Below are positions 39,260 to 49,936 of a stretch of DNA of 64,000 nt, piece after piece. The notes beneath the pieces are model-generated. The model worked only from the letters and a program-made list of their open reading frames with translations. It did not search any database and was not told the DNA's origin. This stretch comes from Bacteroidota bacterium. GTDB lineage: Bacteria > Bacteroidota > Bacteroidia > Bacteroidales > Tenuifilaceae. The stretch lies in NCBI GenBank assembly GCA_029560875.1, contig JAKQKB010000033.1:1-64000 (forward strand), in the 5' to 3' direction. Position numbers and translations under genes: made by a program. The first letter of the stretch is position 1; each line of letters begins with the position of its first letter.

Positions 39260-40729
39260 ATGGCCGACGAACTAATTAATTTCGAGTTACCGTCAAATAA
39301 CGCATCCATAATCAAAGTGATTGGAGTTGGTGGCGGCGGAGGAAATGCGGTTAACTATATGAACCGTATGGGAATCAAGGATGTTGACTTTGTGCTGTGC
39401 AACACCGATGCCCAGGCAATGGTTAATAGTCCCGTTGAGTTTAAAATTCAGCTGGGAGCATCGCTAACCGAGGGGCGCGGGGCTGGTAATAAACCAGAAA
39501 TTGGACGTCAGGCGGCCATAGAGAGTTTACAGCATATTGTCGATTTCCTATCGAACAATACCAAGATGGTGTTTATTACCGCCGGAATGGGCGGTGGTAC
39601 CGGAACTGGTGCTGCGCCAATTATTGCTAAAGCGGCAAAGGAACTGGGAATACTAACTGTTGCCATAGTGACTATCCCGTTCCGCAACGAGGGCAAAAAG
39701 CGCATTGCACAAGCGGTTGAAGGTATCGAGAATATTCGCCAGCATGTAGATTCTTTGCTTGTAGTAAACAACGAGAAGATTCTAGAGATATACGGTAACC
39801 TTAAGGTTACCGAGGCTTTTGCCAAAGCCGATGATGTTTTGGCAACTGCCGCCAAAGGTATCGCCGAAATTATAACTGTTCATGGCTACATAAACGTGGA
39901 CTTTGCCGATGTTGAAACTGTAATGACCAACAGCGGTGTTGCGCTTATGGGCTCGGCACGTGCAACTGGCGAAAATAGGGCGCTTACAGCGGTAAAAGAA
40001 GCGTTGGAGTCGCCATTGCTAAACAATAACGACATTTCCGGTGCACGCAACATTCTGTTGAATGTAACTTACGGTCAGGATGAGATTACAATGGAGGAGA
40101 TTGGCCTAATTATCGATTATGTTCAATCAGCTGCAGGCGACGATGCCGACCTAATTTGGGGTAACGGCTGCGACCCTTCGCTTGGCGAAGATTTGAACGT
40201 AACCGTAATTGCCACTGGTTTTGGAACAAGTAGCATACCTGAACTTTACGTTCGTAACAAGGAGGTTGATGTGGTTGAACTCGATGGTGGAATCCGTTCT
40301 AATCGTGTTGAAACAACTCCATACATTTTGGACGAAACAGAACGCAAACAGCCAACTCGCCGACCTAAAAAACCCGAAACAATTGATACATCTCAGCGTG
40401 TAATTGAGTTTGATGTTGCAGCCGAGGAATTTGAGGTTAGAACTGTTTCAACACCTCGCCCTGTTAGAGCAGAGGATGCTATGCAGCCAAAAACATCAGC
40501 AAAACCTACAGTTCCAACCAGCAAGCCACATCCTGCGCCAAATGGTAACAGGTGGAGTAATATAGATGAGTTAGAAAGCATTCCTGCTTACAAGCGTCGC
40601 AACGTCCAGCTCGACGATACCGACCATTCAAACACCAGCAGTTTATCGCGCACAACTTTAAGTGAGACTGACGATGGAGATATTTTCTTGAGGCCGGATA
40701 ATTCGTATTTACATGATAATGTGGATTAA
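39260..40729 (+). CDS. ftsZ: Cell division GTPase FtsZ
   Basis: 489 residues, longer than the typical 380-400 because of an extended C-terminal linker. FtsZ polymerises into the division ring. The tubulin signature GMGGGTGTGAAPIIAKAA is at about residues 112-129, and VIGVGGGGGNAVNYM near the start. The conserved C-terminal peptide is IPAYKRRNVQL (about residues 445-455), which binds FtsA; unusually about 34 further residues follow it. Last gene of the dcw cluster. Confidence 0.98.
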   Translation: MADELINFELPSNNASIIKVIGVGGGGGNAVNYMNRMGIKDVDFVLCNTDAQAMVNSPVEFKIQLGASLTEGRGAGNKPEIGRQAAIESLQHIVDFLSNNTKMVFITAGMGGGTGTGAAPIIAKAAKELGILTVAIVTIPFRNEGKKRIAQAVEGIENIRQHVDSLLVVNNEKILEIYGNLKVTEAFAKADDVLATAAKGIAEIITVHGYINVDFADVETVMTNSGVALMGSARATGENRALTAVKEALESPLLNNNDISGARNILLNVTYGQDEITMEEIGLIIDYVQSAAGDDADLIWGNGCDPSLGEDLNVTVIATGFGTSSIPELYVRNKEVDVVELDGGIRSNRVETTPYILDETERKQPTRRPKKPETIDTSQRVIEFDVAAEEFEVRTVSTPRPVRAEDAMQPKTSAKPTVPTSKPHPAPNGNRWSNIDELESIPAYKRRNVQLDDTDHSNTSSLSRTTLSETDDGDIFLRPDNSYLHDNVD

Positions 40730-40738
40730 TTATCAACA

Positions 40739-40792
40739 ATTTGAAACTTACACGAAGAGTAAGGGCCACTCTACTCTTCGTGTACTTCAAAT
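40739..40792. terminator. Long hairpin between ftsZ and the RiPP operon
   Basis: A perfect 13-bp stem TACACGAAGAGTA/TACTCTTCGTGTA (40749-40761 with 40772-40784, 10-nt loop) is extended by outer arms ATTTGAA/TTCAAAT with a small bulge. It lies between the convergent genes ftsZ and mini-HlyD. No long T run follows on either side, so termination may rely on the hairpin itself or on RNA processing. Confidence 0.7.
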
Positions 40793-40819
40793 TACATATA
40801 AGTAAAAGAACCTTTGGAT

Positions 40820-41296
40820 TTAAATTCTAAGACCACTAATAAAATAAAAAAACACCGTTGTTTCTCTAAGGGTAAGCGAAAAATCAACTTCCGAAACATT
40901 AAGCCTTTCAACATCTCCACTCTTAAGCAACACCACCTCTGCCCTATTCCGCCCCTCTCTTGTTCTTAATTTATCATATTTTATTACCTTACCACATATC
41001 GAATCTTCTGGAGTAACAAGAGTTACATCACAATTAATTGGGTTGATTGAACTTCTTTCCTCTGGCATCTTAAACTCAACACTTAGCCATGCACTATCAA
41101 CTGAAACGAGTTTTATTTCATTAATAACTAAAACCCCATTCACAACTTGCTTATATGGCAAAAAGAATGAAATAGTAAAAAGTACCAATAAAGCAATAAC
41201 AACAGAAAAAACACCATACTGAATAAGCGTCGAAGGAACTTGTCCTATTACGTGCCGCACTTTTTCGCTCCTTAATTCAAAATTTGGATATTCCAT
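40820..41296 (-). CDS. Minimal HlyD-like membrane adaptor of the RiPP exporter
   Basis: 158 residues from the ATG at 41296 (a GTG six codons upstream would overlap the ABC gene). The N terminus MEYPNFELRSEKVRHVIGQV and the following membrane helix (about residues 28-48) look like the start of Bacteroidota HlyD-family adaptors. After it comes only a short beta-rich part (VVNGVLVINEIKLVSVDSAW, then GKVIKYDKLRTREGRNRAEV). The usual coiled-coil hairpin and lipoyl domain of HlyD (about 400 residues in all) are missing. The ending is natural, with no sign of a frameshift. It is the last gene of the RiPP operon. An alternative is an unrelated accessory protein. Confidence 0.6.
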   Translation of the reverse strand: MEYPNFELRSEKVRHVIGQVPSTLIQYGVFSVVIALLVLFTISFFLPYKQVVNGVLVINEIKLVSVDSAWLSVEFKMPEERSSINPINCDVTLVTPEDSICGKVIKYDKLRTREGRNRAEVVLLKSGDVERLNVSEVDFSLTLRETTVFFYFISGLRI

Positions 41297-41306
41297 AGCA
41301 TTCAGA

Positions 41307-43505
41307 CTAACCACCTAATTCTAATTGATTCCTAACCAACTCATAATACTTACCTTTTTTCGCAGTAAGTTTCTCGTGCGTGCCGATCTCCACCACACTA
41401 CCATTATCTAGAACTACAATTTGATCTGCATTTTTGACTGTTGATAAACGATGTGCTACAACAAGAACCGTTTTATCCCTGTAAAAACTCACAAGATTTT
41501 CGACTATAGCCTTTTCGTTACTAGCATCCAGCGCATTGGTGGCTTCATCAAAAAAAACAAACTGAGGATTCTTGTAGACTACTCGGGCTATTAGTATACG
41601 CTGTCTCTGACCATGACTAATACCTTGACCATCTTGACCGATCATTGTGTTATAGCCCAGAGGAAGAGCCTCAATGTAATTTGCTATATTTGCTATACGA
41701 GCAGCGTATCGAATTCTTTCAATATCTGGGCTTTCATCGCTTGTTGCTATGTTACGCGCTATTGTATCTGAGAAAAGATACCCATCTTGCATTACAGCTC
41801 CACAATTTTGTCGCCACCATACAAGATTGAATTGCTCCAGATTATCACCCCCAACAGAAACGCCTCCGCTTTGGGGAGTATAGTACCCCAACATTAGTTT
41901 AACAAGGGTGGTTTTCCCACTACCACTTGCACCCACTATGGCCGTAACTTTTCCTGAGGGTATCGTAAAGTTTATATCGTTTAGCACATAGTCTGGCCTA
42001 ACTCCTTCGTACCTGAAATAAAGATTGTGTATCTCAATCGTATTATCTTTAGAACTTATTGAAGAAACTTTTCTATTTTCGTTCTCTTCATTTTGCTCTG
42101 AATGTATCTCGTTCATACGATCAAGACTAATGCTGACATCTTGCCAAGAATAAATAAACTGAACCAACTGCTCGACTGGACTGTTTAACTGACCAATTAT
42201 ATATTGCACAGCAAGCATCATCCCTAAGGTCATATTTCCGCTAATTACAGAGGATGCAGAAAAAATCGTAATCAAGATATTTTTCAACTCATTGATGGTA
42301 ATACTGCCAGCCTGCTGTGTTTGTTGTAGATTCAAAGACTTAAGGTTTGCGTCAAAAAGTTCAGCCTGAACATCCTCCCAATCCCAGCGTTTCCGGTGTT
42401 CACATCCTTGCAATTTAATTTCTTGCATACCATTAATAAGTTGGTAGGTGATATTCCTATTCTTACCAGATAATTCAAAATATCGAAAATCCAATTGCCT
42501 TCTTTTTTTTAAGAAAAATATTATCCAACCACTATAAATCAAACTACCAACAATAAAAATTGTAAATATCATCAGATTATACTTCAGCAGCACTAATCCA
42601 AAAACAAAAAAAGTAAAGATTGAAAACAACAGATTAAGAGTGCTAGAAGTTAGAAATTGCTCTAAACGCCTATGATCTTCAATGCGCTGTAAAATATCGC
42701 CCAACAGCTTGGTATCAAAAAAACGCATTGGTAATTTCATTAGTTTTATAAAAAAATCCGATATTAATGAGATGTTAATACGAGAACTAATATGGAGGAG
42801 AATTTTTCCACGGACGAATCCTATTATAGTATTACTAAAAAGCAACATTATTTGAGCAATAAGTACAAGCCAAACGAACCCAATATCCTTGCTACCAATA
42901 CCTTCATCGACAATAGCTTGTGTTAAAAACGGAAATAGAAGCTGAATTATAGAACCCACGGCAAGTCCCAAAATCAGTTGAATAAAAAAACGTCTGTATT
43001 GTTTCACATATCCCCATAAAAATACGTATCTCCCTTTCTTAATATTCAAAGTTCCATTTTGAGAATAGAATAATTGTGTTGGTTCCAATAACAGAACCAC
43101 ACCTTTATCCTCTCCACCAGCCTTTGTGCTCAACCAACCCTCGCAAAACTCTTCTTTATTATAAGTTACTAAACCCTTTCCAGGATCTGCGACATATACA
43201 GCATAATTATTCTTACGGTTTTTCTTTACTTTGTATATTACAACAAAATGATTTTGATCCCAATGAGCAATGCATGGCAACAAAGCTTTTTCGGCAAGTT
43301 TTTCAAAAGTAAGTCTACCTCCTACTGTCTTAAATCCAAGTTTTTCAGCGGCACGGCTTATACCTAAAAGTGACACCCCGTTTTTATCAAAAAAACATTC
43401 TTTTCTCAAATACTCAATACTCTGCATTCTCCCATAGTAAAAAGAAATCATGGCCAAGCAGGCCGGACCACAATCCATTGCATCACGTTGTTTTACAAAA
43501 ATCAT
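41307..43505 (-). CDS. C39-peptidase-containing ABC exporter
   Basis: 732 residues from the ATG at 43505 (a TTG three codons upstream is less likely). Residues 1-130 are a C39 peptidase: Gln6, catalytic Cys12 in DCGPACLAM, His86 in QNHFVVIY and Asp107 in VADPGKG. Residues about 155-440 form the membrane domain (six helices), and the ATPase follows with Walker A GASGSGKTT, signature ISHGQRQR, Walker B FVFFDEATNALD and the H-loop VVAHRLSTV. Such proteins cut leaders after Gly-Gly and export the core peptide. It lies in the operon with the GG-type precursor at 47282. The signature has His where the consensus has Gly. Confidence 0.93.
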   Translation of the reverse strand: MIFVKQRDAMDCGPACLAMISFYYGRMQSIEYLRKECFFDKNGVSLLGISRAAEKLGFKTVGGRLTFEKLAEKALLPCIAHWDQNHFVVIYKVKKNRKNNYAVYVADPGKGLVTYNKEEFCEGWLSTKAGGEDKGVVLLLEPTQLFYSQNGTLNIKKGRYVFLWGYVKQYRRFFIQLILGLAVGSIIQLLFPFLTQAIVDEGIGSKDIGFVWLVLIAQIMLLFSNTIIGFVRGKILLHISSRINISLISDFFIKLMKLPMRFFDTKLLGDILQRIEDHRRLEQFLTSSTLNLLFSIFTFFVFGLVLLKYNLMIFTIFIVGSLIYSGWIIFFLKKRRQLDFRYFELSGKNRNITYQLINGMQEIKLQGCEHRKRWDWEDVQAELFDANLKSLNLQQTQQAGSITINELKNILITIFSASSVISGNMTLGMMLAVQYIIGQLNSPVEQLVQFIYSWQDVSISLDRMNEIHSEQNEENENRKVSSISSKDNTIEIHNLYFRYEGVRPDYVLNDINFTIPSGKVTAIVGASGSGKTTLVKLMLGYYTPQSGGVSVGGDNLEQFNLVWWRQNCGAVMQDGYLFSDTIARNIATSDESPDIERIRYAARIANIANYIEALPLGYNTMIGQDGQGISHGQRQRILIARVVYKNPQFVFFDEATNALDASNEKAIVENLVSFYRDKTVLVVAHRLSTVKNADQIVVLDNGSVVEIGTHEKLTAKKGKYYELVRNQLELGG

Positions 43506-43549
43506 ACTTCCCAAAATCAGTCTAAAAATCCATTTACTTAATCAATACA

Positions 43550-45901
43550 CTATCTTTCTCCCTTAATAATAGTAGTTTCCTGCTCCGTTGCTTTAAACTT
43601 GGGTTTTCCTCTCTTCCTTTGTTCACTGCCCCATGAGAACAAGTAGGTTAATTTAGCAAAAAAAAGGTTCTCGTACATCTGGTTGTAGGCATAGCGAGTG
43701 TAAGGTGCAATTGCAGACAGGTTTTCGTACTTTACATCTCGAACCTTAAGAAAAGGATTCATTACACCTACCGACACTCTTAACTTACCGTACTGCGATG
43801 ATACAATAAATCTACTGTGCAAACTTTTACTCTTCAGCACTTCTCCCATCTGTGCATCGGTTTGACCATACCACATTTCGGACACGAAATCCCACTTGCG
43901 CCACTTTATGTTAAACTGCCCCTGGCAAAAAGGAATAAAAGCTTCGTGCTCGTAAACACTACCCCCATCGCTAATGTAATGACTAAAGCCACCCCATAAA
44001 CTAAACGAAAGAAAATTCCAGATTTCAGTGCCTTCTAACGAACAACTAGCCGTATATTGAGTAAATTTATTCAGATTTTCGGGCATACGCACAACTATAT
44101 AACTAAGATCGGCTTGTTGCTCCAAAAAACTTATATCCATTATTGGGTTCTGAATTTGGCGGTATTTACCTTGGACAAACAACTCATATTTCGAAGTTAA
44201 TTCCAATGTATTATTAAGTGTGAACTGTAAAAGTCTAGTATTGGTTAGATTAGGATTTCCTCGCTGAACTTGATAAGGATCGAGTCGTATCTCTGAAGTG
44301 GTAAGTTCTCCTATGGGAGGTTGACTATACTTGAGCATAGCATCCAAATCGACAGTCCAAGTTCTTGTTGGGCTAAGGCTTATTGCACCAATAGGTAACC
44401 ACTGCGACCACCTTTTAGTATAATCATCAATGCTATAGTTCTGCCAAAAATGTACTGCCCCTAATGCAAGCATTAATTTGTCGCCCATTACCATCAACAT
44501 AATTTTATTTTCACCATTATTCTGCCGCATATTTACAGCAACAGGCTCAACTCCTAACGAAGAATAACTATTGCTTATCCATCTACTACGCCAACTACTC
44601 GATAGAGATAACATCCCAGACCACATTTCACCTAATGGGAGTGGCGCATTGTAATTGCCCTGCAAACCTGTAAGATGTATTTCTTCAGAATTACTATTGC
44701 TAGAAAAGAAAGGGTTAATGGAGGAAAACTCCTCAAATTCACGTTTGTATTTAGCACTTCTAAGACTATAGTCGGCGTTAATATATAAAGGCCCTATTGG
44801 ACTCTTAACCTCAATATATGTGCTTATCCCCTGAGTTGTGTTCCTCTCAAAGTTATGCTCATTATTAATTGTTGTATCGGATTTTGATGAAGTTTTTGTG
44901 ATTACACGACCTGCAAAATCATTGTTTTTATCCCTATCGAACTGACCAAACCCCGCAATATCAAGCATAATCTTACGTCCGGTATAGTTGTAATGAGCGG
45001 AACTGTTATTATGCCAATATATTTGACGAGCTGGAATTGCAATTTCATTTCTAGATATAGTTTCTGAAGGGAAATTGAAATAATCGGAACGCTCCCGCAT
45101 TTGGCTAAAAGAATAACGAAATTGAGGTTGCCAGTCTACCATAAAGCTATGCCTACCATTGTATACCCTGCCAATTACATAATGCTCCCCATAAGTATTA
45201 CTAATCCCTTCCGTAATATTTACGTTTACAGCACCGCCCCTTGCAGGTAAATCAACAGTTAGATTGATTACAATAGATGCTAGTGGAAAACGGGGTGTGG
45301 GTTTATCGTAATAATCGATGCGTCTAATAAGCTCAGGGTCGATACTTTGAATCTCACCCGATGTCGCAGGTCGATCATTAATAAGTAACACAACGTCTCC
45401 TCCTCCACGCACAGAAATGTTGTATGATACGGGGTCAACATAAATGCGTGGCGGCTTCATCGATGAGAGCAAGTCCATGCCATTTACTGAATTGGACACC
45501 CTTCTATCCGTTGGCAAATAGGTAATGCCATCGGGTCGGTAAATCTTGCTTCGACCTTTAACAACCACGCCCTCAATATCCAATGAGGTTTCGACAAGCA
45601 CAACGCTTCCTATATCGCCTGTATCTACAAGCATATACTTTGACAAATAACCTAGGCACGAAAAACGCAGATACTTGAGTCCACCATTGCACTTTAGGGA
45701 AAATCGACCAAGTGTATCTGTAGTCGTTAATGCCACAATTGCAGAATCAACATTATCTTTAAGTATCGAAACATTAACATTACGTATAGCATTACCATCT
45801 TCAGAGACAACTTGACCCGTAATAACGGATCTTGTTTGGGAAAAAGAAGTAATTACAATAAAGGAAAGAAAGGAGAATAATAAATATTTTTTAAAAATCA
45901 T
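43550..45901 (-). CDS. TonB-receptor-like outer-membrane beta-barrel protein
   Basis: 783 residues. A signal peptide covers about residues 1-21. Residues about 24-110 are a CarboxypepD-reg-like domain (SVITGQVVSEDGNAIRNVNV), then a plug-like domain (MDLLSSMKPPRIYVDPVSYN, VRGGGDVVLLINDRPATSGE), and a long C-terminal barrel of the OMP_b-brl_3 type. No clear TonB box was seen. The gene lies 1 nt after the radical SAM gene and 44 nt before the ABC gene, so it belongs to the RiPP operon. It may carry the product across the outer membrane, protect the producer, or recover the product; none of this is shown. Confidence 0.8.
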   Translation of the reverse strand: MIFKKYLLFSFLSFIVITSFSQTRSVITGQVVSEDGNAIRNVNVSILKDNVDSAIVALTTTDTLGRFSLKCNGGLKYLRFSCLGYLSKYMLVDTGDIGSVVLVETSLDIEGVVVKGRSKIYRPDGITYLPTDRRVSNSVNGMDLLSSMKPPRIYVDPVSYNISVRGGGDVVLLINDRPATSGEIQSIDPELIRRIDYYDKPTPRFPLASIVINLTVDLPARGGAVNVNITEGISNTYGEHYVIGRVYNGRHSFMVDWQPQFRYSFSQMRERSDYFNFPSETISRNEIAIPARQIYWHNNSSAHYNYTGRKIMLDIAGFGQFDRDKNNDFAGRVITKTSSKSDTTINNEHNFERNTTQGISTYIEVKSPIGPLYINADYSLRSAKYKREFEEFSSINPFFSSNSNSEEIHLTGLQGNYNAPLPLGEMWSGMLSLSSSWRSRWISNSYSSLGVEPVAVNMRQNNGENKIMLMVMGDKLMLALGAVHFWQNYSIDDYTKRWSQWLPIGAISLSPTRTWTVDLDAMLKYSQPPIGELTTSEIRLDPYQVQRGNPNLTNTRLLQFTLNNTLELTSKYELFVQGKYRQIQNPIMDISFLEQQADLSYIVVRMPENLNKFTQYTASCSLEGTEIWNFLSFSLWGGFSHYISDGGSVYEHEAFIPFCQGQFNIKWRKWDFVSEMWYGQTDAQMGEVLKSKSLHSRFIVSSQYGKLRVSVGVMNPFLKVRDVKYENLSAIAPYTRYAYNQMYENLFFAKLTYLFSWGSEQRKRGKPKFKATEQETTIIKGER

Positions 45902-45902
45902 A

Positions 45903-47213
45903 CTATTTTTTTTTAGTTTGCATATACCGATTTATAAGACTACTCTTTAATAGGTTCTCATCCCGGTGAGTACAGCAAGTATCAAAATGACCATTTGCGC
46001 GAAGATTTCGAACCTTATACCACGCACAACCTCCATGACAAATTGGCAAAATAGCACATTCCTTACATTTTGCATTTTCATACCAAGCGGTTGTAAATAA
46101 ATAGTCATAAAATAATTGCCTGTGTATAAGTGTATCATCATGAATGTAACCCACTATTTTGTTTTTATCCGTAACATCATTCCAGCATTTATACATCTCT
46201 CCTGCTGGCCCTATGATATATGAATTAATTCGATTTGCAGTACAACTTTTAAGAAGTAATGTAGGATAATTATTTGCGAATCCACATTCTTCAAGTTTCT
46301 GCGAAAATGCTGCAGCATCAAAAACGTTCATTGACTCCTCGCTAAAATCAGCACCTTCTTTGTTGTCTATACGTAATATCCCTGGATATATCTCATAGTT
46401 TGAATATTTTTCCCATCTCTCAGAAAGAAACTCCTTAACTTCATAAAACTGTTCCTGACTAGACTTATCCACATTAACTCTTACGGATAAGAAGGTATTT
46501 GGCAAAGCCTCTAAAATCCTATCCATGTTCGAGATAATTCTATAAAACGACCGCTCCTTTGTTTTGTAATTAACCCTAATAGAATCATGTCTCTTCTGAT
46601 TACCATCCAATGTAACTTGTATCAAATTTAGAGGAAATTCAGAGAAAATCTCAATTGCCTTTTCATCAAAATAATAGCCGTTCGTAATAATATCATGCCT
46701 TACTAAGGTCTTCCCAGTTCTATTGAATTGCTGTAAAAGGGTTCTTATAACATCTATTGCCAATAAAGGCTCCCCACCATACCATGTTATTGACATTGTT
46801 TTGGCTAATGAATGTTTCTGAACAAATTCAACAAGTTGAGCAATCTGAACATGCTCCATTACTCGTTGATCCTTCTTTGGTTCAAAACAATAATGGCATC
46901 TAAAATTGCACTGACTAGTCGGAGCTATTATAAGGCTCAATTGCTCTTGAGAAAACCCTAACTGTAATGTTTTAAATTGCAACTCTCGAACATAAACATC
47001 ATCATCTTCTTCATGCACTATTACCTTTTGTTCCATTAAAAAACTTAACACATCTTCTTCAAAGAGATCAACATCTACCTTACCATTTCTATTAAGTCTA
47101 AAAAAATCAAAAAGTTGAGCCGAAATTTCAAATAAAGCATTAGTGCGGGAACAATATGCAAGTTTCAAGTCATTACCTGCATCAAAAAAAATTGAATATC
47201 TTGATATTTTCAT
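45903..47213 (-). CDS. Radical SAM/SPASM peptide maturase
   Basis: 436 residues from the ATG at 47213 (a TTG four codons upstream is less likely). The first 90 residues resemble the leader-recognition front part of peptide maturases (SRTNALFEISAQLFDFFRLN). The radical SAM cluster motif is SQCNFRCHYCFE, with Cys102, Cys106 and Cys109, followed by TWYGGEPLL. The C-terminal SPASM region has GPAGEMYKCW and CKECAILPICHGGCAWY plus a later Cys-Cys pair, enough for two auxiliary 4Fe-4S clusters. Enzymes of this kind form thioether or carbon-carbon links in RiPP precursors. The substrate is presumably the peptide 69 nt upstream. Closest concept: the GG-Bacteroidales maturases. Confidence 0.9.
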   Translation of the reverse strand: MKISRYSIFFDAGNDLKLAYCSRTNALFEISAQLFDFFRLNRNGKVDVDLFEEDVLSFLMEQKVIVHEEDDDVYVRELQFKTLQLGFSQEQLSLIIAPTSQCNFRCHYCFEPKKDQRVMEHVQIAQLVEFVQKHSLAKTMSITWYGGEPLLAIDVIRTLLQQFNRTGKTLVRHDIITNGYYFDEKAIEIFSEFPLNLIQVTLDGNQKRHDSIRVNYKTKERSFYRIISNMDRILEALPNTFLSVRVNVDKSSQEQFYEVKEFLSERWEKYSNYEIYPGILRIDNKEGADFSEESMNVFDAAAFSQKLEECGFANNYPTLLLKSCTANRINSYIIGPAGEMYKCWNDVTDKNKIVGYIHDDTLIHRQLFYDYLFTTAWYENAKCKECAILPICHGGCAWYKVRNLRANGHFDTCCTHRDENLLKSSLINRYMQTKKK

Positions 47214-47281
47214 ACTTTGTAACAAAAATAAATTAATCAGGGAGAGGGCAAAAATCCCTCTCCTTTAAGCAAAACAAACTT

Positions 47282-47500
47282 CTAAATTACTGAACTTGTA
47301 GTTGTTGTTGGCTTTTTGTTTCTATTAAAGAAATCACACTCACAATCTCCGCCATCTTTGTTTCTATTGAATAGTGTACATTCACAATCCACTAAGTTAG
47401 AACTAACACCACCAACAATATGACTCAAATCGACACAAGACATTTTATCAGCAGGCACAATAACATTTAAATCTTTGTTTGAGAATCTTTTGGTTTCCAT
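47282..47500 (-). CDS. RiPP precursor peptide with GG leader and duplicated CEC core
   Basis: 72 residues. Leader residues 1-31 end in DLSHIVGG, fitting the double-glycine class cut by C39 peptidases. The core (32-72) holds two similar units 14 residues apart: DCECTLFNRNK (38-48) and DCECDFFNRNK (52-62). The second unit is itself preceded by Gly50-Gly51. A Lys-Pro and Thr/Ser-rich tail ends the peptide. The DNA of the two units is also similar, so they arose by a 42-bp duplication. First gene of the operon with the radical SAM enzyme and the exporter. The leader cysteine (Cys22) is unusual. It resembles the GG-Bacteroidales natural product precursors in outline only. Confidence 0.85.
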   Translation of the reverse strand: METKRFSNKDLNVIVPADKMSCVDLSHIVGGVSSNLVDCECTLFNRNKDGGDCECDFFNRNKKPTTTTSSVI

Positions 47501-47519
47501 ATTTTTCTATTTTGTTTTC

Positions 47520-47539
47520 ATTTGCTTCTAATAGCAAAT
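47520..47539 (-). repeat. Inverted repeat in the RiPP precursor leader
   Basis: ATTTGCT and AGCAAAT form 7-bp arms around 6 nt, 20-39 nt upstream of the precursor ATG. It could be an operator or a leader hairpin controlling precursor synthesis. Confidence 0.5.
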
Positions 47540-47672
47540 TATTGTTAATATTTGGATTACAAGTGTCTTTATTTGCCCCAAAACACAAGGCTCACTTCAT
47601 TCCACTAATGGTTGGGTGCGTTGCTTTAAAACAAATTAAATATTTTAACTTTACAATCAATTAATCCGTTAT

Positions 47673-47714
47673 GCCCTTTGGAAGAAAGCAAACGCCAATC
47701 AACAACCAAAGGGC
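47673..47714. repeat. Inverted repeat upstream of the RiPP operon
   Basis: GCCCTTTGG (47673-47681) and CCAAAGGGC (47706-47714) are perfect 9-bp arms separated by 24 nt. Being GC-rich in an AT-rich region and about 170-210 nt upstream of the precursor, they may be a regulator-binding site or the remains of a terminator. Confidence 0.5.
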
Positions 47715-48007
47715 AAAATAATAAAGCGATTTTTACCTAATAAAAAAATAAACTTATTCAACATAATCATTGAGATACAGATTGATTTAAACATAAACGC
47801 GCTCAAATTTTTTTAACACACCTTACTATAATCACAACCTCCGAAATAGGTTCGCTAAATAAAACTACTCTAAATACCACATTTTAAATCTTTCCATGCA
47901 TTAACACGCAAGAAATAAACGACTTACTAATATTTATTTTCAGATTGCACTACTTTCTTAATGCTTTCTTTTTAGCAGTTTCTATTGTTTAATACTGATT
48001 AGAGTAT

Positions 48008-48037
48008 AATTGTTACCCTAGGGTGAGCAATTTTTTA
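48008..48037 (+). terminator. Palindrome followed by T run
   Basis: AATTG, then ACCCTAGGGT (48015-48024), then CAATT, followed by a T6 run. The shape resembles an intrinsic terminator on the plus strand, but no plus-strand gene precedes it, so it may instead be an operator. Confidence 0.35.
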
Positions 48038-48232
48038 AATCCTTAATCTAAAAAAGTATTATCGTGCTAATTGCTTGGGACAAATACCACAATAACAAGT
48101 AACCACAAAAAGTTAATTCGTGTAAATAGACTTACATCTGTTGTGCCTCCAGTATTAATCGTTGAGGTGTTTTAGGGTCGTTTAAAAAGGAAAAGCGAAT
48201 GGTTAGTTTGAATTTGAAGGATGAAAATTAAA

Positions 48233-48256
48233 AAAGACCAGTTGAAACTGGTCTTT
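48233..48256 (-). terminator. Rho-independent terminator after the rluF-type gene
   Basis: AAAGACCAGTT and AACTGGTCTTT form an 11-bp palindrome (a 9-bp stem with a realistic 6-nt loop). On the minus strand it is followed by TTTTTTAATTTT. It lies 46 nt after the stop codon at 48303. Confidence 0.85.
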
Positions 48257-48302
48257 ATACGTTATTGTTTTGTGCTTCTATTTGAATTTGGGCAGGTTTT
48301 AC

Positions 48303-49379
48303 TTATGGCCTTTTTCTGAACTTAGGACTTGTTTTGGTCGTTTTCTTTAATGTTGATTTGTATGTAGTAGATTTTCCAATATTAGCCCCTTTATTCTTGC
48401 CAAATTTTGTTGGTTTTTCGCTTGCGTTTCCTTTCTTTGGAGCAGAACCTTTTGCGCCACGAACTTCTTCGCTTTTTGAAGCATCAACCTTTTTCGATTT
48501 TCCTGCAGGTAACTTGGCTGCTTTTTTGGCATTGTCAAATTTGGGTTTGCCCGATTTGCCAAATCTAGACCTTGGTCTATCATCCTGTTCCCGGTATTCG
48601 CTTTGCTTCGTTTTTCGAGCTTGCTTATTCTTGCTGAACGACCTATCTTTACGTGGTGTAGAACTTGAGCCCTCAAGCATACTCATCAACACCTCAACTT
48701 CTTTTTCGTCTAAATCGCGCCAGTCGCCAAGAGGTAAACCCTTTAGGGTAATGTTCATTATTCGGACACGTTCTAACTTAATAACCTCGTATCCAAAATG
48801 GCTACACATGCGTCGAATCTGCCTATTCAATCCTTGTACTAGTGTAATTCGGAAAATAAATGGGGTTTCCTTTTCAACCTTACACTTTTTGGTCATTGTA
48901 CCTAAAAGGGGAACCCCATTAGCCATTCCTTCAATAAACTCTTGGGTTATTGGCTTATCCACAGTTACAACATATTCCTTTTCGTGCTTGTTGCCTGCAC
49001 GAAGAATCTTGTTAACCAAGTCGCCATTGTTGGTAAGCAGAATAAGACCTTGCGAGTCCTTATCGAGCCTTCCAATAGGAAACACTCTTTGGCTATGATG
49101 AACAAAGTCTACTATATTACCGTCGGTGTTTTTTTCGGTTGTGCTAGTAATTCCAATTGGTTTATTCAGTGCTATTATAAGGTTCTGTGGCTCTGTGTGA
49201 GCAATAAAGTGTCCGTTTACATAAACTTTATCCTTTGGTTGAACAAAATCGCCAACCTGAGCCCGCTGCTTATTCACAAAAACCTTTCCTTGCTCAATAA
49301 ACCTATCGGCCTCTCTACGTGAGCAAAAGCCAGAATCGCTTATAAATTTATTTAATCGGATTGATTTAGATACTGTCAT
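48303..49379 (-). CDS. rluF: 23S rRNA pseudouridine synthase, RluF/RsuA family, with basic tail
   Basis: 358 residues. An S4 RNA-binding domain ([20 protein letters not shown]) is followed by the RsuA/RluF catalytic domain: [20 protein letters not shown] holds the catalytic Asp, and [20 protein letters not shown] is the family signature for RluF. It probably modifies 23S rRNA near U2604. Residues about 235-358 are a Lys/Ser/Arg-rich low-complexity tail, common in Bacteroidota members and presumably RNA-binding. The start overlaps the PAP2 stop codon (ATGA). Confidence 0.9.
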
Positions 49380-49936
49380 TTTCTTGATTTATTGAGTATT
49401 TTCGATGCTACAAACCACACTGCGCTTCCAATTCCTGCACCAACAATTGCCCCAACCAACACATCGCCCGGATAATGAACGCCAAGGTATATCCTACTAT
49501 AGGAAACAAATGCTGCCCAGACTAACAGGCCAACTGTAACCCATTTCCTATTGAAAAGGAACGAAAGGAATACTGCCACTCCAAAGGTATTTGCAGCGTG
49601 CGATGAGATAAACCCATACTTACCACCACACCTTCCTACCAAATGAATAAATTCACTTAAATCGGGATTATGACATGGGCGCAAGCGTTGAAAAACATTT
49701 TTAAATGCCTGAACCGAAATTTGGTCGGCCAAAAGAACCACAAAAGCAATTGCAAGTAACCACCAAAGTGCTTTCCACTTATGTTCGCGAGCAATAAAAA
49801 AAACTATCACCAGGTATAACAGCAACCAGCTTAATTTACCCGATGCAAAATACATTATACTATCCCAAAAAGGAGAGTGTGCACCATTAAGCGCAAGGAA
49901 TAAGTTTGTATCGAGTTGAATAAGGTAGTCAATCAT
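49376..49936 (-). CDS. PAP2-family membrane phosphatase
   Basis: 186 residues with about five membrane helices. The three phosphatase motifs are KNVFQRLRP (KxxxxxxRP), [12 protein letters not shown] (the PSGH equivalent) and [16 protein letters not shown] (SRxxxxxHxxxD). It may act on undecaprenyl pyrophosphate, phosphatidylglycerol phosphate or lipid A; the sequence does not decide. It is coupled to the pseudouridine synthase by an ATGA overlap and follows obgE by 2 nt. Confidence 0.9.

Follow-up and report, generated by a model that had tools for sequence, protein, structure and literature searches.

How peptides with a double-glycine (GG) leader cross the outer membrane of Bacteroidales is an open question in print (PMC10352776; PMC6671954), and lysis has been kept as a possible means of bacteroidetocin release (PMC6671954). 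Here we ask what a compact locus in a 64,000-nucleotide stretch of DNA from a Tenuifilaceae bacterium (contig JAKQKB010000033.1) contributes to this question. This whole stretch is referred to as the window, and its positions serve as coordinates throughout. An initial annotation had placed five minus-strand genes at 40820-47500: a peptide precursor, a radical S-adenosylmethionine (SAM)/SPASM enzyme, an outer-membrane barrel, a C39 peptidase-ATP-binding cassette (ABC) exporter (hereafter C39-ABC), and a short HlyD-like protein that we term mini-HlyD. The list of open reading frames of the window bears out all five, in that place and order (Table 1). The new part of this locus is the combination of an HlyD that has lost its hairpin with a near-exclusive partnership between this protein and the barrel, and this pairing makes the outer-membrane question directly testable.

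Table 1. Features of the five-gene cassette and its site in the window
Feature	Position	Strand	Description
Precursor gene	47282..47500	-	72 amino acids (aa); GG at residues 30-31; from the list of open reading frames and counterparts in relatives
Core repeat 1, DCECTLFNRNK	47357..47389	-	CxC and C-x3-N; direct repeat in the DNA
Core repeat 2, DCECDFFNRNK	47315..47347	-	CxC and C-x3-N; direct repeat in the DNA
Stem-loop between precursor and maturase genes	47241..47263	-	8 bp, G+C-rich; fold -16.3 kcal/mol, z -1.9
Radical SAM/SPASM maturase	45903..47225	-	440 aa; Radical_SAM 3.9e-16 (Pfam)
TonB-dependent-receptor-type barrel	43550..45901	-	783 aa; CarboxypepD-like N-terminal extension, TonB-box-like LDIEGVVV, plug, barrel
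C39 peptidase-ABC exporter (PCAT)	41307..43514	-	735 aa; Peptidase_C39 1.6e-31, ABC_membrane and ABC_tran over cut-off
Mini-HlyD	40820..41314	-	164 aa; N-terminal segment ELRSEKVRxxIGxxP, one membrane helix, short C-terminal domain, without the lipoyl/hairpin middle
Stretch without counterpart between ftsZ and the PAP2 gene in G002	40730..49411		cassette plus rluB-type pseudouridine synthase gene

A five-gene cassette conserved across Bacteroidales

The five genes are separated by short gaps, and those for the C39-ABC and mini-HlyD overlap when the longest frame is taken. By gene content, the locus is a complete cassette for a ribosomally synthesized and post-translationally modified peptide (RiPP), as had been claimed: it joins a short GG precursor to a modifying enzyme and a C39-ABC. 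A contig scan based on the maturase recovered loci from Prevotella dentasini (L004; locus numbers are our own), a Tannerellaceae metagenome-assembled genome (MAG; L005) and a Prevotella MAG (L006), all of which carry five genes in the same order. In an order-wide search, relatives of the maturase were found in 33 of 393 genomes, and the same five-gene order is present in eleven loci besides that of the window (L004, L005, L006, L040, L042, L045, L047, L066, L074, L077 and L083). These loci come from gut-type Bacteroidales and represent no fewer than nine families.

As in the window, a GG-type precursor stands directly upstream of the maturase gene in these relatives, and each of the eleven loci encodes a precursor of its own, whose core contains Cys and is unrelated to the window core; the L083 precursor has AG instead of GG, and L042 has four precursors. 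The shared order and the separate precursor of each locus identify the five-gene cassette as a real conserved system, beyond chance, with the pairing of precursor and maturase maintained across families. In L066 and L074, the cassette contains a different radical SAM protein of ~490 aa. The barrel, the C39-ABC and mini-HlyD are a widespread module, common to the order and to differing maturases, and the description of these envelope partners as unusual does not hold.

Several cassettes carry features of their own. At L082 (2415-3152), a protein with an FGE-sulfatase (formylglycine-generating-type) domain is encoded between maturase and barrel and is a possible extra modifying enzyme. The maturase frames of L041 (285-1625) and L046 are interrupted by stop codons, which suggests that they are decaying copies. 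Finally, a contig labelled as a Chromatiaceae MAG (L007) holds a cassette that lies very close to the Prevotella and Tannerellaceae MAG ones in the maturase tree, and this label is probably a binning error rather than a sign of inter-phylum transfer.

Domain loss in HlyD and its pairing with an outer-membrane barrel

The exporter of the window is a C39 peptidase domain fused to an ABC exporter, and inspection of its translation located the C39 Cys, His and Asp residues, Walker A and B and the signature motif. Its neighbour, the window mini-HlyD, matches the N-terminal segment of HlyD at 8e-18, and as a single sequence it falls into no Pfam or NCBIfam family. Separate models were built for the N-terminal 75, the middle and the C-terminal 125 residues of 22 full-length HlyDs. 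With these models, the N-terminal segment and helix were found in all 33 mini-HlyDs and a recognisable C-terminal domain in 17, while none (0/33) matched the middle part that carries the lipoyl and hairpin regions of a type I adaptor. Profile-profile comparison placed the C-terminal domain at columns 335-438 of full-length HlyD (99.9%), and the mini-HlyD profile also matches the corresponding part of a solved HlyD (8dck). What is retained of HlyD is the portion located next to the ABC protein, in and below the inner membrane; the portion that contacts TolC is lost.

Mini-HlyDs form a class of their own in length as well as in domain content. In a survey of HlyDs next to C39-ABC, lengths fell into two groups, 150-239 and 428-469 aa, apart from a single protein of 335 aa, and a query with mini-HlyD across the order returned matches in 83 of the 393 genomes, with open frames mostly of about 150-260 or about 430-480 aa. 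Ten positions of the N-terminal signature (L14, R15, S16, K18, R20, I22, G24, P27, R32 and G34) show full invariance or at least 90% conservation across 31 loci. Arranged by size, HlyDs form a reductive series of 435, 225, 155-180 and 65-74 aa, the last represented by L048 and L039, where the segment and helix alone accompany a barrel; at L038 a barrel is present and no mini-HlyD is detectable. A scan of viral contigs with mini-HlyD yielded no relatives. As a search handle, the motif ELRSEKVRxIIGxIP after a C39-ABC could bring to light many RiPP loci that lack annotation and have diverse CxC cores.

No TolC-type channel is encoded with these proteins, as none of the five cassette products is an OEP protein. 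Instead, the cassette contains the barrel. Taken alone, the window barrel gives weak matches: its CarboxypepD-like front falls just under the Pfam cut-off, yet PF14905 is over it, and a single-sequence search against solved structures returned nothing. The barrel family profile, which was needed for that comparison, matches PF14905, CarboxypepD_reg and Plug, and among solved receptors FepA (7e-20), CirA, BtuB and the N-terminal extension of SusC. After the N-terminal extension, a TonB-box-like motif fits a simple pattern in 19 of 26 barrels, in some of them loosely, and similar motifs occur in several others. Because of these profile and Pfam matches and this motif, which together cover plug, barrel, N-terminal extension and TonB box, the barrel is classed from its sequence as a TonB-dependent-receptor-type protein.

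The presence of the barrel follows the state of HlyD. Where an HlyD gene adjoins a C39-ABC and enough upstream sequence is available, a barrel lies upstream of the C39-ABC in 18 of 21 mini-HlyD loci and in 4 of 48 full-length loci (odds ratio 66; Fisher p = 4.5e-10, a value that overstates independence since the loci are related and is a guide only, although the loci span many families). Both exporter types coexist in the genome of the window, where contig C232 encodes a C39 exporter with a full-length HlyD and without a barrel.

Proteins of ~480-540 aa in full-length-HlyD loci were considered as TolC candidates and rejected, as most are S41 peptidases; of ten neighbours scanned, an OEP protein occurs only in L052. 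Separately, we observed a second peptide-locus architecture, a radical SAM maturase with an S41-family peptidase, in L044, L050, L055 and L051. In L044, L050 and L055 it is accompanied by a C39-ABC and full-length HlyD, without a barrel, and L055, from the sister species G002, has three CxC precursors.

Routes across the outer membrane

Starting from gene content, domain anatomy, hairpin loss and co-occurrence, all of them direct observations, we envisage the following order of events. The precursor would be made in excess, with the stem-loop damping read-through into the enzyme gene, as its conserved position suggests. The radical SAM/SPASM enzyme would modify the Cys-rich core, and its relatedness to other maturases points to thioethers from the CxC cysteines to nearby carbons as the most likely product. 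The C39 domain, as is established for its family, would cut after GG, and the ABC part would carry the core over the inner membrane. Mini-HlyD has kept the ABC-side part and lost the part that contacts TolC, which would leave no sealed conduit; because this bridge to the outer membrane is missing, the peptide would be set free in the periplasm or passed on there. The dedicated TonB-gated barrel, given its near-exclusive co-occurrence with mini-HlyD, would then take the peptide across the outer membrane, and the product would probably have an extracellular role, either as a signal or as a bacteriocin-like agent.

We consider it somewhat probable that the window cassette is such a RiPP synthesis-and-export system, in which a modified peptide released into the periplasm is exported by a TonB-gated barrel. 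That the same holds across the order is a plausible but tentative extension: a modular two-step route, serving several unrelated maturases and cores, in which a C39-ABC with a hairpin-less HlyD would be followed by a TonB-energised barrel as an outward gate replacing TolC. A precedent for secretion by a TonB-dependent transporter is Oar of Myxococcus xanthus, a transporter with a TonB box that was reported to move PopC outwards from the periplasm (PMC6434023); PopC, however, is a whole protease without a GG leader, and the Oar-PopC pair includes neither a C39-ABC nor a short HlyD. The barrel pairing described here suggests that uptake-type receptors may serve secretion more widely than this single case.

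Several points, in addition to the relatedness of the loci counted above, weigh against export through the barrel. The barrel family normally consists of importers. In a quick tree, the cassette barrels, which are fast-evolving, were not supported as one clade, which lends no support to a single dedicated exporter lineage, and the pairing has exceptions in both directions (three mini-HlyD loci without an adjacent barrel and four full-length loci with one). In the window mini-HlyD, the C-terminal domain is too diverged for a single-sequence match, and AlphaFold predictions from four-sequence alignments were unusable (pLDDT 44 for mini-HlyD and 32 for the barrel).

The main rival explanation takes the barrel as an importer. 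The peptide, a metallophore, scavenger or pheromone, would exit via the C39-ABC and some TolC, bind metal or report density, and be retaken by the receptor, a scheme modelled on methanobactin, whose reuptake proceeds via the TonB-dependent receptor MbnT. The barrel profile does resemble ferric-siderophore and cobalamin receptors, the barrels have TonB-box-like motifs, and Cys-rich cores could bind metal. Nevertheless, the barrel is constant while the cores differ completely among loci, and peptide loci with full-length HlyD mostly lack it; import leaves unexplained why barrels accompany HlyDs without a hairpin (18/21 loci, against 4/48 with full-length HlyD), and no regulator or reductase is encoded within the cassette. 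We therefore judge import to be unlikely.

Ordinary type I secretion, with mini-HlyD as a short adaptor to a TolC homologue encoded elsewhere and the barrel serving immunity or an unrelated function, appears quite improbable. Such homologues are plentiful in Bacteroides fragilis, which has more than 20 (PMC4319957), and the full-length-HlyD loci of the order also mostly lack an adjacent TolC; yet the hairpin middle that meets TolC is absent from every one of the 33 mini-HlyDs, and L048 and L039 retain almost nothing periplasmic. Type I HlyB-HlyD-TolC and ColV-type C39 exporters resemble the cassette in combining a C39-ABC with an HlyD-derived protein, whereas in the window this protein is without lipoyl and hairpin regions and the locus has a TonB-receptor-type barrel in place of TolC. 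That mini-HlyD is a decayed pseudogene in a degenerating locus seems very unlikely. The window protein is strongly diverged, its longest frame starts with GTG, and loss has gone further in L048, L039 and L038; against decay, the N-terminal signature is shared by open frames of 150-239 aa in 31 loci, HlyD lengths are bimodal and the neighbouring genes are intact.

The two-step route also bears on systems already described. The GG-Bacteroidales system (maturase TIGR04148, precursor TIGR04149, pseudo-radical SAM protein TIGR04150) is similar to the cassette in its order-level host, GG leader, radical SAM/SPASM enzyme and C39-ABC; it differs in that the window maturase and precursor lie outside its families and no pseudo-radical SAM protein is among the five genes. 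The initial annotation had proposed a kinship in outline, and this is supported by locus L079 (9340-14549), where true GG-Bacteroidales members of TIGR04148 (501.7 bits) and TIGR04150 (330.1 bits) precede the same type of C39-ABC and a mini-HlyD of 165 aa, and a barrel of 885 aa lies upstream. In 2023, Fernandez-Cantos et al. (PMC10352776) described Bacteroidales RiPP clusters, BGC6-9, with a C39 exporter, an outer-membrane protein and GG precursors, in which a membrane fusion protein was not found. A short HlyD remnant overlooked by standard models may be the missing partner in these clusters, which have YcaO or LanM enzymes, whereas the window cassette has a radical SAM enzyme and a short HlyD. 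In addition, a survey of graspetides put forward TonB-receptor-like proteins as their predicted exporters (PMC8939145). With such loci and such a prediction in print, "undescribed system", the wording of the initial annotation, is too strong for the cassette as a whole; for the hairpin-less HlyD, or its pairing with the barrel, no description was found in the literature searched, which did not include subscription papers.

Precursor, maturase and insertion site

The leader of the window precursor comprises residues 1-31, METKRFSNKDLNVIVPADKMSCVDLSHIVGG, and ends at the GG cleavage site; it is followed by a core of 41 aa, VSSNLVDCECTLFNRNKDGGDCECDFFNRNKKPTTTTSSVI. Two copies of the consensus DCEC[TD][LF]FNRNK make up the core repeat, which is also a 33-nucleotide direct repeat (79% identical). 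The precursor has no Pfam match and no NCBIfam family at E<=10, hence none to TIGR04149. CxC motifs are over-represented among 32 cores, with 33 occurrences, whereas shuffling within each core gave 10.0 +/- 2.9 (at most 22 in 5000 shuffles), a count somewhat inflated by paralogous precursors in L042 and L055. A CxC core, GGDCMCQCKVNSSS, is likewise found at L038, which has the closest maturase (40% identity, sister in the maturase tree). In both window repeats and in the L041 core, CxC leads into C-x3-N (CECTLFN, CECDFFN and CWCIFFN), a spacing that PapB substrates also have, in the form C-x3-D. We offer C-x3-N in the window repeats as a candidate donor-acceptor pair, as a lead only.

The maturase, whose start is likely the ATG at 47213, has the CxxxCxxC motif (C106, C110 and C113) and seven C-terminal SPASM cysteines, all invariant in 29 sequences and characteristic of SPASM radical SAM peptide maturases. 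It scored below every NCBIfam cut-off searched. The best match was TIGR04334 (Clo7bot; 207.7 bits against a cut-off of 600), followed by TIGR04463 (190.9/525), NF038107 (CefB; 169.5/600) and NF047865 (PapB; 111.5/340), and the score to the GG-Bacteroidales maturase TIGR04148 was 63.1 bits against 300. Two findings had been named in advance as counting against the reading as a modified-peptide system, namely a precursor without homologues beside maturases and a maturase from a well-studied family; neither occurred, since at other loci GG precursors do adjoin maturases, and the window maturase reaches no curated cut-off.

For the maturase family profile, the nearest solved structure is 5wgg (CteB, a thioether-forming SCIFF maturase; 1e-47). 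Because CteB forms thioethers, our best guess for the chemistry is thioether cross-links on the Cys-rich core, ranthipeptide- or sactipeptide-like. The Clo7bot, TIGR04463, CefB and PapB maturases and the ranthipeptides are thus similar to the window system as its nearest families by score, with CteB as the nearest solved enzyme, but scores far below cut-off and other precursors set them apart, as do the outer-membrane export parts of the window cassette.

Between the precursor and maturase genes, every one of the 19 loci examined has a stem-loop, equivalent in position and different in sequence (z between -2.0 and -8.5); that of the window matches no Rfam family. Because its position is conserved, the stem-loop is likely an attenuator or an RNA-processing site, which would raise precursor expression above enzyme expression.

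Flanking the cassette are the plus-strand ftsZ gene (39260-40729) on one side and an rluB-type gene (48303-49379) on the other. The sister genome G002, which is complete, has the PAP2 gene straight after ftsZ and nothing that matches 40730-49411, and at the same site G001 has a different gene, sensor-kinase-like by reading. Because G002 has no counterpart and G001 another gene, the cassette is a recent gain or sits at a variable site. Downstream of ftsZ, three genomes of the genus have three different contents, and in P. dentasini the cassette adjoins two tyrosine-recombinase-like genes.

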